DNA from: Myxococcales bacterium
GTDB lineage: Bacteria; Myxococcota_A; Polyangia; DRWM01; JAAZOP01
Length of the DNA: 36,239 nt
Reading direction: 5' to 3'
NCBI GenBank assembly: GCA_012797735.1
Contig: JAAZOP010000160.1
Coordinates: 1-36,239 of the forward strand
The notes under the pieces are model-generated. The model saw nothing but the letters and a program-made list of their open reading frames with translations. It was not told the origin of the DNA and did not search any database. This document shows positions 22,896 through 27,100 of this stretch, piece after piece. The stretch's first letter is position 1; every line of letters starts with the position of its first letter. Position numbers and translations under genes: made by a program.

Positions 22896-22968
22896 GCCCA
22901 GGTAGCTCAGGTGGTAGAGCAGGGGACTGAAAATCCCCGTGTCGGCGGTTCAACTCCGTCCCTGGGCA
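22896..22968 (+). tRNA. tRNA-Phe (GAA)
   Basis: A full cloverleaf folds by hand: acceptor GCCCAGG/CCTGGGC (7 bp); D stem GCTC/GAGC; anticodon stem GGGGA/TCCCC with loop CTGAAAA and anticodon GAA at 22929-22931; variable loop GTGTC; T stem GGCGG/CCGTC (one G-T pair) with loop TTCAACT; discriminator A at 22968. No CCA is encoded. The 3' part from the anticodon loop onward is duplicated at 27058-27100. Confidence 0.97.
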
Positions 22969-22969
22969 C
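22927..22969 (+). repeat. attachment site copy 1, 3' part of tRNA-Phe
   Basis: These 43 bp run from the first base of the anticodon loop to one base beyond the discriminator and are identical to 27058-27100 in direct orientation. The bases on either side differ at both copies, so the match ends sharply. This is the classical footprint of site-specific integration at a tRNA gene. Confidence 0.9.
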
Positions 22970-23007
22970 TCGGTTTTCGGCGTTTTCGCGGGGTTCTGCG
23001 ACGGGGG

Positions 23008-23074
23008 GTCCCTGCCTACCCGCCCTCTACACTATTTCCGAGGGGGGGCAGGTGTCTCATCCACGTTGGCACGG
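23008..23074 (+). repeat. left arm of 66-67-bp inverted repeat
   Basis: 67 bp that match the complement of 24347-24412 with one substitution and one extra G in a G-run. Starts GTCCCTGCCTACCCGCC and ends CCACGTTGGCACGG. It lies 39 bp beyond the attachment site and 49 bp after the stop of the lipoprotein gene. It may be a solo insertion-sequence end or the terminal repeat of a cassette. Confidence 0.9.
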
Positions 23075-23123
23075 AGGAGGGGCAAGGAGGCCACCAAGGT
23101 TGGCGCCGAGGGACGGACGACCC

Positions 23124-24218
23124 CTACGGCGCGACGAGCGACAGCGGTAAGCGAACGCGGAAATCCCCTCCCTGCGGAGGGTTCGAGGTGAAGCTCATCG
23201 AACTCAGAACGGCTTGGATGCAGGCGGTTACGCCGGCCGCGTCCAGCCCGGGATCGTTCCGCTCGACCTCGACCGTCACGGTCCCCCGCGCGCTGATGGC
23301 GACGATGAAAGTCAGCTCGCCCGCCAGGGTCGGAGCGCTGCGCAGCTTTTCCTGGTAGCAGGCGTCGAGCGCTTCGCTCTTCTCGGCGAGGACCCGCCGG
23401 AACGTCCACCCGTCCATCTTCCCACTGCCGCCCGCGGGTTGTCCTCCAGAGTAGCTTCGGACCCTGCCGAGTCGCGGTCGCGCGGGTTCCGAAAGCATGT
23501 ACTCGTAGAGATAGAACTCATCGACCGACTTCGATTCCATCGTGGCGTCGGGGGCGAACACGAACTGGCTGTGCCCGACGCTCGCGGGACCCATGCCGCC
23601 CTCGAACAACACCCACATGTCCACCAAGACGCCGCCGTCCGGCTGTGCTTGCGCCCTGGGCGGCGTGAACGTGCGGCCTGCCCTTTCGAAAACCGGCATC
23701 GCCGTCTCCAGAATCTCGCCTCCGGCGATCTCCATGTCGGCAAACACGACCTTTCGCACCCACAGCATCGCCAGCCGCTCCCGCTCGGGCGGCGGCGCCG
23801 TCGTCCAGCCCATCGATGTCAGGACCCTGCTGGCAGCCTCCTCGACCCCATACACGCGGCACCGGTGGATGACGTGGGTGCGCAGGCAACCGACTTCCGT
23901 GGCCACCTTGCCCACGATGGCAGCACCGATCTCCGGAACCGGCATCGCGCACCGGTGGGCGCGTTCCTCCTCGTTGCCGGTGATCCGAACGAACGCGTCG
24001 ATCGCCTTTTCCGTCGTCGAGACGTCGCAAGCCGGCGTCTCTGTTGTCGAGGCGTCGCCAGCCGGCATCTCCGTTGGAGCCGACACCGGGCCAGCCGCGT
24101 CGTTCACACGCGCCGCCACGTCGGGACCAGGCGTGCCGTCGCCCTTCTTCGTCGTCCGGCGGCACGAGCTCGTGACAAGCGCCAGTATCACGACGGGTAT
24201 CAGCGCGACCAGCCTCAT
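23124..24218 (-). CDS. lipoprotein with AgmX/PglI-type C-terminal domain
   Basis: 364 residues. Signal peptide then C19 (LVTSSC). A Thr/Pro/Asp tether with two near repeats (STTETPACDVSTTEKA) runs to about 75. The middle (about 75-260) is not recognised; it has a Cys-containing N-terminal part (CLRTHVIHRC) and a strand-rich part. The last ~95 residues read AEKSEALDACYQEKLRSAPTL, GELTFIVAISARGTVTVEV, then VTACIQAVLSSMSF and a closing strand, matching the AgmX/PglI C-terminal domain common in Myxococcota, a TonB-C-like fold of unknown role. A gggagg ribosome site supports ATG 24218. The gene sits between long inverted repeats inside the island. Confidence 0.85.
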   Translation of the reverse strand: MRLVALIPVVILALVTSSCRRTTKKGDGTPGPDVAARVNDAAGPVSAPTEMPAGDASTTETPACDVSTTEKAIDAFVRITGNEEERAHRCAMPVPEIGAAIVGKVATEVGCLRTHVIHRCRVYGVEEAASRVLTSMGWTTAPPPERERLAMLWVRKVVFADMEIAGGEILETAMPVFERAGRTFTPPRAQAQPDGGVLVDMWVLFEGGMGPASVGHSQFVFAPDATMESKSVDEFYLYEYMLSEPARPRLGRVRSYSGGQPAGGSGKMDGWTFRRVLAEKSEALDACYQEKLRSAPTLAGELTFIVAISARGTVTVEVERNDPGLDAAGVTACIQAVLSSMSFTSNPPQGGDFRVRLPLSLVAP

Positions 24219-24257
24219 GGCAACCTCCCGGGCTGGTATTCGAGCCAACCCTCCGGC

Positions 24258-24287
24258 ATTCTGACTCCGCGAGTCGCATGTGATCAA
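24258..24287 (-). promoter_or_regulatory. candidate promoter of the island lipoprotein gene
   Basis: On the minus strand TTGATC (24287-24282), 18-bp spacer, CAGAAT (24263-24258), 40 bp before the ATG at 24218. The promoter lies inside the inverted-repeat unit, so gene and promoter would move together. Confidence 0.45.
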
Positions 24288-24346
24288 TGGCTGACCAACA
24301 AGTGCCGACCTCCACGTCGCGCAGGATTCGGCGAAGAAGGGGCCCC

Positions 24347-24412
24347 CCGTGCCAACGTGGATGAGACACCTGCCCCCCTCGAAAATAGTGTAGAGGGCGG
24401 GTAGGCAGGGAC
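24347..24412 (-). repeat. right arm of 66-67-bp inverted repeat
   Basis: 66 bp complementary to 23008-23074. It lies 84 bp upstream of the IS3-type orfA fragment in the orientation expected for an IS left end (it contains TGAGACACCTGCCCCC, which resembles IS3-family termini), so the repeat may come from that element. Confidence 0.9.
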
Positions 24413-24495
24413 GAGATAGGAAAGCAGAACGGACAGGTGACGGCAGCGACGGTGCAGGGGAGGTCGGGCCCACCGGGCCCGAGGCGGCCGCGGGG

Positions 24496-24864
24496 GTGGC
24501 CTCCGCGCCGGCGGTGGTGCCCGACCCTCAGGTGGAACGGCCGGCGCGGCGGACGTTCACCGCGGAGTACAAGAAGCGGGTCCTCGAGGAGGCGGACCGC
24601 TGCACCCCTGGAGACGGTGAGCGCGGCGCCCTCCTGCGTCGCGAGGGGCTGTACTCCTCGCACCTGACGACCTGGCGGGCGCAGCGTGCAGCGGGGACGC
24701 TGGCGGGCCTGGCGCCGAAGAAGCGCGGGCGCAAGCCGGCGCCGGCGCCGGAGCGTAGGAAATCCGACGCCCGTTTGGTTGCCGCCAAGCCATCCGCTCC
24801 TCGTGCTTCGCTGGTCGAAGCGGTAGCATCCGGGGCGAGTCGGGGCAACGGCGAGGCCGGGTGA
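24496..24864 (+). pseudogene. IS3-family OrfA transposase fragment
   Basis: The frame carries RRTFTAEYKKRVLEEAD, then GALLRREGLYSSHLTTW, then LAPKKRGRK, the helix-turn-helix segment typical of IS3-type OrfA proteins. After about 24735 the similarity ends in an unrelated low-complexity tail, and no OrfB (DDE integrase) follows, so the element is truncated. The GTG at 24496 is the first start codon in frame. A 6-bp hairpin (GCTTCG/CGAAGC, 24805-24821) lies in the stretch between this and the next IS fragment. Confidence 0.75.
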
Positions 24865-24876
24865 GAGGCCCGAAGG

Positions 24877-25545
24877 TCAGTCCTGCGCGACCGGCGGGAG
24901 CTGGGAGGCGTCGTCGTAGAGGGGAAGCTGGCAGTCCTCCTGCCAGGCCGGGTCGGCGAACTCGTCGGACGAGGGCGGCGAGCCGTCGTCCGGCGGCCGG
25001 CCGGCGGAGGGAGAGCCGCGACCAGCCGGTGGCCGGGGCGGCCGGGAGACGGGCAGCTCGTCGGGGTCGCGCGGAGGAGCGAAGGCGGCGGGCTCGGCGG
25101 ACACCCCGAGTCGCTCGAGATGGTCGCGGATGTCGTTCGGGTCGGTGACGGGGTCGAGGACCGCCATGCGGCCGCCGCACCTGGGGCAGACCAGCACGTC
25201 TTCCGCCCAGGTCCGTCGGAAGAGGTCGGGCCAATTCACGCGGGGCTGCCGGGCGAGGAGGCGGCCCTCATCGAGACGCCTCCAATGCTCGGCGGAGAGC
25301 GTGCGAGGGACGGGTGTCGGGGCCGCGAGCAGCGGGTCGTCGCCTTCGCCGAGGGTTGGGCGCGCCGGGACGGAATCGGGCGTCCGGGGAGGAACGGTCG
25401 GTGCCGGGTGGGTGGGCCCGCCTGCGGCCGGAGGATGTCGGCACGCGGGAGACGCCTCGGGTGGGCGCGGCACGATGCTGGAACGCCAGGGTGAGTTGGC
25501 AGCGAAGACTCCCGCGTAGCGAAGAAGCGGTGTCCCGTCGGCAAC
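24877..25545 (-). pseudogene. IS91-family transposase, C-terminal remnant
   Basis: The minus-strand frame reads, N to C, LLRYAGVFAANSPWRSSIVP, then a Pro-rich linker, then NWPDLFRRTWAEDVLVCPRC and GGRMAVLDPVTDPNDIRDHL, ending in an acidic tail. This is the C-terminal third of IS91-type (Y2, rolling-circle) transposases with its CPRCGG zinc motif. No start codon lies upstream; the similarity stops near 25545, where an IS66-like fragment on the other strand begins. The catalytic Tyr region is missing, so it cannot be active alone. Confidence 0.75.
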
Positions 25546-25566
25546 GGTGTGCAGGGCGGCGACGCC

Positions 25567-25716
25567 GGGCGCGAAGGCCGCTTTCGCGACGAGAAGGTGG
25601 CGGGCCTGTGCTCGGACCTGTACCTGCGGCGTCAGGTGCTGTGGACCTTCGCCCGGGAGCCGGGCGTCGAGCCCGCCTCCAGCCGCCGGGCCGTCGAGCC
25701 GGGGTCTGACACCTGA
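25567..25716 (+). pseudogene. IS66-family transposase fragment
   Basis: A 50-codon stretch reads GREGRFRDEKVAGLCSDLYL, then RRQVLWTFAREPGVEP, matching the segment of IS66-type transposases before the conserved PTNNxAER motif. Here PTNN is replaced by ASS and the frame ends in a stop at 25714. It abuts the IS91 remnant, giving a nested IS scar. Confidence 0.6.
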
Positions 25717-25736
25717 TCCTCGAACTCGCCTGCGCT

Positions 25737-26507
25737 TCAGCGACCACCCAGTCGGTCTGGCGCAAAGCGTCGCAACGCCCGCCGGGCCTTCGGATTCCGC
25801 GTGACGATCAGGTCATAGAGATACGGCCAGTATGATGTGACGTTCTGGTTCCCCTGCAACCGCGCCCGGACGAAACCCGCAGTTCGTAGCACGGGGTGCG
25901 TCCGCAGGTCCTCCAGGAAGATCGGGGCGTCGAGGCGGGCCAGGCACCTGAAGCGGCCGAACAGACCGGTGCCCTCGCGCCAGGCACAGCGCGAACGGCG
26001 GAGGTCGGAGTCCAACACGAAGATGTCCCGGATGCACCTTTCCGGCACGCACCGGTACATCAGCATCAGGTCGCCCTGATGGGCACTCTTGCGAGCCAAC
26101 CAATCCACTTGGTTGCGGTCGAGGTACTGCTGCTGCGACGCGATGGCGGGCTGGATCCAGACTTTGGGTCCAAGGCCGTAGAACTTCCGAAGCTCGATTA
26201 CGCGGAGGGACTCCGGGCGCTCGGGCCAGTCGTCCTCCCAGCAGACGATGCAGTCGCACCGCCGGGCGGAATGGCCGTGGGTACGGAAGCTGCTCGACCG
26301 GAACTCAAACTCGATTCGGACCCGCCGCTCGCCCCTGGTCCCCTTCTCGTAGGCGACACAGTCCGGAAACCCTTGGCGGATTTGTTCGACCCGCATTCGC
26401 AGCCTCTTCGCCAAGTGGGCGAAGAGGAAGACGACGCCCTGCTCGTTTGTCGGCGCCAAGCGCATCGGGCCACCTTCCAGCACGTCCGGTCGTTCCGTCT
26501 TCTTCAT
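25737..26507 (-). CDS. PD-(D/E)xK-like nuclease with C-terminal PUA/EVE-like domain, candidate defence protein
   Basis: 256 residues. N-terminal half: APTNEQGVVFLFAHLA with E22, GFPDCVAYE with D49, RVRIEFEFRSSSF with E66 and E68, and HGHSARRCDCIVCWEDDW. The order helix-Glu, PD, ExE, then a hydrophobic CDCIVCW strand fits a PD-(D/E)xK nuclease core, with R70 near the usual Lys position. C-terminal half (about 116-240): VWIQPAIAS, GDLMLMYRCVP, RDIFVLDSD, a PIFLEDLRTHP segment and YWPYLYDLIVTRN, resembling PUA/EVE-type modified-base readers. Both assignments rest on pattern recognition. The inference is recognition of modified nucleic acid coupled to cleavage, as in modification-dependent restriction. 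The gggagg site supports ATG 26507; an in-frame upstream extension is unlikely. It is less G+C-rich than its surroundings. Confidence 0.75.
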   Translation of the reverse strand: MKKTERPDVLEGGPMRLAPTNEQGVVFLFAHLAKRLRMRVEQIRQGFPDCVAYEKGTRGERRVRIEFEFRSSSFRTHGHSARRCDCIVCWEDDWPERPESLRVIELRKFYGLGPKVWIQPAIASQQQYLDRNQVDWLARKSAHQGDLMLMYRCVPERCIRDIFVLDSDLRRSRCAWREGTGLFGRFRCLARLDAPIFLEDLRTHPVLRTAGFVRARLQGNQNVTSYWPYLYDLIVTRNPKARRALRRFAPDRLGGR

Positions 26508-26538
26508 CGGTAGAACCTCCCGGCGCGGTCTCAGCCAG

Positions 26539-26769
26539 TTACTCACACTGAGGGGCAGCCTCCATTGACCGGCGAATCCAGTCCTCCGTGGTTCGTGCCC
26601 GAGCGACGTCCAACATGAACTCCTGCCTCCGGCTGACGAACCGGTGCAGCGTCCGGCCATCGCGGAAGCCCCACCGCCGTCGGTCCGCATGGTACCCGAC
26701 GCACGTCCCGGCGCGGAGCGGGCAGGTGGCCAGTCCGGCCTCCGCGATCACCCAGCCCGGTGACGGCAA
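26539..26769 (-). CDS. small hypothetical ORF upstream of the nuclease gene
   Basis: 76 codons from a TTG at 26769, ending 31 bp before the nuclease ATG. The peptide (GWVIAEAGLATCPLRAG, WGFRDGRTLHRFVSRR, QEFMLDVARARTTEDWIRRS) looks protein-like but matches nothing I know. Directly before the TTG and in the same frame is a TGA (26772-26770). Upstream of that, 17 codons from a GTG at 26823 have a strong ribosome site (gaggaggaagg). It may be one gene broken by a nonsense codon, or two coupled mini-ORFs. Confidence 0.4.
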   Translation of the reverse strand: MPSPGWVIAEAGLATCPLRAGTCVGYHADRRRWGFRDGRTLHRFVSRRQEFMLDVARARTTEDWIRRSMEAAPQCE

Positions 26770-26823
26770 TCACCGGGTCTCAGCGAAGCGACACCGGTGC
26801 TCGTCGGTGCAGTTCGTCTCCAC

Positions 26824-27057
26824 CCTTTCCTTCCTCCTCGGTCCGTCTCCTGCGACCGGGCCAGGGTACGCCGACACCGGTTTGGGTGTCCAGCCCCACG
26901 TCCGCGGCGCGGCGCCGCACCCGCAGGTTGCGGTCAGGCTGCCTCGCGCCGCCAGCGCGTCCGAGCGCACCCGATCTGTTACGCATGCGTTACGCAACCT
27001 TCCGCTTGCGCGCGAAAACAAAGCGAAGTTGGGGCCTTGTGGCACTCGTGTTCCGGT
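26824..27057. other. island right end without a gene
   Basis: About 230 bp between the small ORF and the second attachment site. The left edge holds the purine-rich ribosome site for minus-strand translation. I see no integrase, excisionase, repeat or stable hairpin in the remainder; plus-strand ORFs here are shadows that run on into the VWA gene. Confidence 0.5.
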
Positions 27058-27100
27058 CTGAAAATCCCCGTGTCGGCGGTTCAACTCCGTCCCTGGGCAC
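27058..27100 (+). repeat. attachment site copy 2, 3' part of tRNA-Phe
   Basis: 43 bp identical to 22927-22969. It lacks the 5' half of the tRNA, so it cannot make a tRNA. By the usual logic of tRNA integration this is the original 3' end, displaced from its 5' half when the island came in. Confidence 0.9.

Follow-up and report, generated by a model that had tools for sequence, protein, structure and literature searches.

The window, by which we mean the whole 36,239-nucleotide stretch analysed here (contig JAAZOP010000160.1 of the Myxococcales bacterium assembly GCA_012797735.1), carries a gene for a 256-aa protein that joins an N-terminal PD-(D/E)XK-like domain to a C-terminal EVE domain. 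On balance this nuclease-EVE gene is likely to be a horizontally acquired, single-gene, Type IV-like modification-dependent restriction nuclease, and it probably protects its host from viruses without help from other genes. In outline the layout has been described before: proteins that combine EVE with PD-(D/E)XK were predicted to form a class of Type IV restriction enzymes (Bell, Wolf and Koonin 2020, PMC7641849). An earlier sequence-only reading, which had recognised no described system with exactly this layout, is to that extent superseded by that paper, and it holds for the nuclease family, absent from the libraries searched. The new part, as far as sequence libraries can tell, is the N-terminal putative nuclease family, which is absent from the Pfam, NCBIfam and PADLOC collections searched. 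The features under discussion are collected in the table.

Table. Positions in the window of the nuclease-EVE gene, its domains and the tRNA-Phe island that carries it.
Feature	Position	Strand	Basis
tRNA-Phe(GAA), insertion site	22896..22969	+	ARAGORN and Rfam
Left attachment repeat (3′ 46 nt of tRNA-Phe)	22924..22969	+	Direct repeat
Right attachment repeat, 45/46 identical	27055..27100	+	Direct repeat; flank comparison with G003
4.13-kb inserted element between the repeats	22970..27100		Repeats, same-genus comparison, GC
Nuclease-EVE fusion gene, 256 aa	25737..26507	-	ORF aligning with 37 full-length relatives
C-terminal EVE (PUA-like) domain, about residues 112-247	25767..26174	-	PF01878 in family, EVE structures, PDB profile match 2gbs
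N-terminal PD-(D/E)XK-like domain, about residues 16-111	26175..26462	-	AlphaFold topology, structural matches, conservation
N-domain E22	26442-26444	-	Acidic residue
N-domain D49	26361-26363	-	Acidic residue
N-domain E66	26310-26312	-	Acidic residue
N-domain E68	26304-26306	-	Acidic residue
Small upstream ORF, 76 aa	26539..26769	-	Exists; partner role unsupported

The nuclease-EVE ORF runs from an ATG at 26505-26507, preceded by GGGAGG about 10 bases upstream and consistent with the aligned N-termini of relatives, to a stop codon at 25737-25739, and its end-to-end alignment with 37 relatives from independent genomes, to which it is 35-66% identical there, identifies it as coding. The 256-aa protein by itself has no match in Pfam, NCBIfam, PADLOC or the PDB, and in PHROG nothing above the level of chance; single-sequence searches gave almost nothing, and it was profiles built from weak matches that opened the family. 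The profile was seeded from such matches in relative L002 and in a Natrinema plasmid, while those in L003-L007 were dismissed as chance, the motif being missing from the reading frames scanned. Searching 84,980 genomes with this profile yielded 237 candidate stretches, 212 of them relatives, and of these the best 80 were kept and supplemented with seven viral-contig loci. Among these are about 40 full-length relatives with 34-67% identity, from some 15 phyla. The closest among the relatives kept (best 80 of 212) is L015 with 67% identity, and the tree groups the window copy with it (93). The L002 match is a broken N-domain relic (L002:1477-1734) in the genome of a different member of the same class, lying beside a transposase-like ORF, and the Natrinema plasmid holds a divergent N-domain copy (L008:4001-4225) at a place where the incomplete PLSDB gene table gives no gene.

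The sequence-only reading had proposed a PD-(D/E)xK-like core from E22, D49, E66, E68 and a following CDCIVCW, all of which lie at the residues it named, and structure prediction did return a PD-(D/E)XK-like core. The N domain is modelled by AlphaFold with a pLDDT of 92.5 and shows the alpha-beta-beta-beta-alpha-beta topology of the PD-(D/E)XK superfamily (helix 22-32, strands 38-43, 50-56 and 59-70, helix 72-77, strand 86-91). In the model E22 stands at the start of helix 1, D49 just before strand 2 and E66/E68 on strand 3, and the four are predicted to occupy the canonical PD-(D/E)XK site positions. Conservation, counted over 85 aligned N-domain sequences, is nearly complete for these residues (E22 84/85, D49 85/85, E66 84/85, E68 85/85) and extends to D85 (81/85), C89 and W90 (both 85/85). 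A further conserved pattern, HxH...C...C, is formed by H77 (80/85), H79 (80/85), C84 (77/85) and C89 (window 26241-26279, residues 77-89), parts of which some members lack; judging from the sequence pattern, it could be a site for a metal, zinc for instance.

Comparison with solved structures points in the same direction at modest scores. The best structural rows are nearly all of PD-(D/E)XK fold, with Z values up to 6.7, below the level of 8 that is regarded as safe: EndoMS (6.7), FokI (5.1), VRR_NUC (5.1) and Can1 (5.0), along with Card1, AgeI, HindIII and the modification-dependent enzymes MspJI and AspBHI. Neither Foldseek nor a BFVD search gave a match at E < 0.001, no sequence similarity of the N domain to any solved structure was found, and PDB profile matches (Vps26 and others) were rejected at E 0.17 or worse. 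Neither Pfam nor NCBIfam has a family for the domain, and PADLOC has none for the full-length proteins.

The N domain departs from the superfamily in one respect. The PD (85/85) and the first Glu of the motif (84/85) are present, but the Lys position is occupied by Glu (E68) in every one of the 85 sequences, so that the motif reads PD...ExE instead of ExK and catalysis is not assured. Active members of the fold with ExE do exist, such as BamHI, and hence the substitution weakens the PD-(D/E)XK label and not the mechanism. The BamHI active site comprises E77, D94, E111 and E113 in a D-x16-E-x-E pattern, and the N domain shares both this spacing and the additional upstream Glu, which makes cleavage plausible. 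The likeness is one of motif only, given that BamHI appears in Foldseek at E 0.4 or worse and is missing from the VIA-align list.

The C-terminal half had been read as a PUA/EVE-like fold, and this assignment has become firmer. PF01878 is matched by 20 of 38 full-length family members (best E 3.2e-8), the window copy by itself giving no match, and the C-domain model aligns with EVE structures at Z 11.6-13.4 (2ar1 13.4, 2gbs 13.1, 2eve 12.6, the EVE of VcaM4I 11.9), with YTH and ASCH structures ranking after EVE. Four residues, W136, D146, Y151 and W227, are near-invariant in the family. SRA and HNH were not among the structural matches listed, an absence that is no argument against kinship.

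Other described or predicted enzymes resemble the nuclease-EVE protein. The class of Bell and co-workers (PMC7641849) likewise holds both kinds of domain in one chain and is predicted to restrict modified DNA, with EVE on either side; the window N domain itself matches no Pfam, NCBIfam or PADLOC family. VcaM4I, an EVE-HNH enzyme (PDB 6yex), flips 5mC/5hmC and restricts T4gt phage (PMC7897488). It combines an EVE sensor of the same fold with a nuclease in one chain and takes the flipped base into an aromatic pocket of P24, W82 and Y130, but its EVE is N-terminal and its nuclease HNH, whereas the window protein has a PD-(D/E)XK-like nuclease domain and a C-terminal EVE. In the PvuRts1I family (PD-(D/E)XK-SRA, cited in PMC7897488) the order agrees, with an N-terminal PD-(D/E)XK and a C-terminal base reader of the PUA superfamily in a single gene; the reader is SRA there, while that of the window protein matches EVE first.

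The gene lies in a tRNA-integrated island, as the sequence-only reading had noticed. The 3′ end of tRNA-Phe is repeated directly over 46 nt (45/46 identical), the copies being 4131 bp apart. The insert has a GC content of 0.689 against 0.739 in the rest of the window, and that of the nuclease-EVE gene is 0.647 against 0.733 for the window, a value as low in only 0.3% of equal-length windows. Besides this gene the insert contains a lipoprotein-like ORF and ORFs that by eye resemble transposase remnants, the latter with no Pfam match; reading its ORFs by eye revealed neither an integrase nor a methylase gene. The small upstream ORF had been proposed as part of the defence cargo, an idea that finds no support, the ORF showing no family match and no similarity to any fetched locus. 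Inverted repeats of about 70 bp (23008-23077 and 24344-24412, 97-98% complementary) flank the lipoprotein-like ORF at 23124-24218 on the minus strand, and a further copy occurs on contig C156 of the same genome; together these may represent a small transposable unit.

Comparison within the genus supports the insertion. The left flank including tRNA-Phe is common to the window and two of the three same-genus genomes compared (G001 and G002), and the third, G003, has the tRNA itself. In G003 the repeat is present in a single copy, and the DNA 3′ of its tRNA-Phe resembles that beyond the right repeat of the window. G001 has a second repeat copy, about 32.5 kb from tRNA-Phe, that bounds an island of its own, with genes for a tyrosine integrase, a C5 DNA methylase, GmrSD_N and FRG (L108, and L109 at G001:C5:22000-36000). 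The nuclease family is missing from all three genomes, so that it is present in 1/4 genomes of the genus, and in 2/96 relatives. In this genus tRNA-Phe is an insertion hot spot that has received restriction-type cargo of different kinds.

A survey of the relatives' neighbourhoods did not place them in housekeeping operons, and no conserved neighbour gene or operon partner emerged across their loci. DNA methylase domains were detected in 3/128 flanking ORFs, that is, there is no obligatory methylase, in keeping with Type IV enzymes, which require no cognate methylase. Restriction-modification neighbours occur as anecdotal cases in a few loci: in L017 the nuclease-EVE gene sits between two DNA methylase genes, and in L015 one such gene is found at a distance of about 1 kb. 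An integrase-like ORF lies next to tRNA-Leu on the L015 contig, within which no tRNA repeat was found. In L016 the gene is flanked by a HEPN-MNT-like pair, with a nucleotidyltransferase domain detected, and a HicAB-like pair.

At least four relatives are integron cassettes. The attC-site scores of L026, L030, L031 and L032 exceed the 99.9% quantile of 1075 background windows, and attC-like sites of L021 and L027 were recognised by eye. Two automatic attC finders had been rejected as too strict or too lax, and the third separated clear sites from background but missed L027, the site of which is clear by eye. In the verrucomicrobial integron L026:9151-11700 the nuclease-EVE gene is one of several cassettes; it adjoins an intI-like fragment and is followed by an attC-like site. 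The window gene has no attC site at its end.

The N domain also makes up whole proteins of about 100-160 aa by itself, or is found with other C-terminal parts. Among the latter are fusions to DUF5655, for which several matches are weak and one is above the Pfam cut-off. In one such locus (L069:9947-12925) the N domain-DUF5655 gene lies 22 bases upstream of an HsdM-like gene (type I methylase subunit), followed by an HsdS-like ORF. Two planctomycete proteins (L074 and L093) carry the N domain with another C-terminal part that is common to both and has no Pfam match. For the EVE fusions a single origin suffices on the tree (SH-aLRT 79, short alignment). Phylum labels switch at least 21 times among them, which points to horizontal transfer on many occasions, bearing in mind that metagenome bins can be mislabelled as to organism. 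We tentatively propose, at less than even confidence, that the N domain represents an undescribed compact (about 100 aa) ExE nuclease family, a module that stands alone or is paired with exchangeable readers (EVE, DUF5655 or others) and that has spread through both bacteria and archaea, in part as integron cassettes of a single gene, in defence against modified phage DNA.

A Type IV-like restriction enzyme fits the pairing of nuclease and base-reader folds, and it fits a gene that is mobile, patchily distributed and tied to no obligatory methylase. The defence role and the recognition of modified bases are suggested by the EVE fold together with the mobile setting and the anecdotal restriction-modification neighbours; DNA as the target, base modification as the trigger and cleavage as the outcome are likewise inferred. 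According to the proposed mechanism, the C-terminal EVE would bind DNA and take a flipped-out modified base into its pocket, and the base-bound EVE would then position the N-terminal PD-(D/E)XK-type core, which may cut the nearby phosphodiester backbone with a metal held by D49, E66 and E68 together with E22. Host DNA without the modification would be spared and modified phage or plasmid DNA would be cut.

Other readings have to be weighed against this one. The protein might recognise a modified base in RNA, such as tRNA, and cut RNA as an abortive or stress nuclease, since EVE, YTH and ASCH domains also bind modified RNA and the fold matches next after EVE are YTH and ASCH structures; the position of L016 between HEPN-MNT-like and HicAB-like pairs is in line with such a role. 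We hold this to be unlikely, given that DNA nucleases make up nearly all of the N domain's best matches, that the DNA-cutting VcaM4I is among the closest matches of the C domain and that PD-(D/E)XK enzymes mostly act on DNA. Slightly less probable is an N domain that keeps the fold without the activity, in a protein that is a modified-base-binding regulator or decoy. The invariant Glu in place of Lys speaks for this reading, yet three carboxylates and the helix-1 Glu that remain near-invariant over some 15 phyla would be hard to explain without catalysis, and the D-(x16)-ExE spacing is that of BamHI, itself in the Foldseek list at a non-significant E.

The last alternative, a conventional restriction enzyme with a methylase encoded nearby, in which EVE reads sequence or the lack of host modification, draws on the methylase genes next to the L017 and L015 copies. 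With none in the window insert, so few among the flanking ORFs of relatives, and single-gene integron cassettes that speak against a fixed partner, we give it the least credence of the three.

If active, the nuclease-EVE protein would be a minimal modification-dependent nuclease of 256 aa, from an unnamed family, that fits into one integron cassette, and it might become a tool to map modified bases. The family offers a defined predicted active site (D49, E66, E68) and about 40 natural variants.
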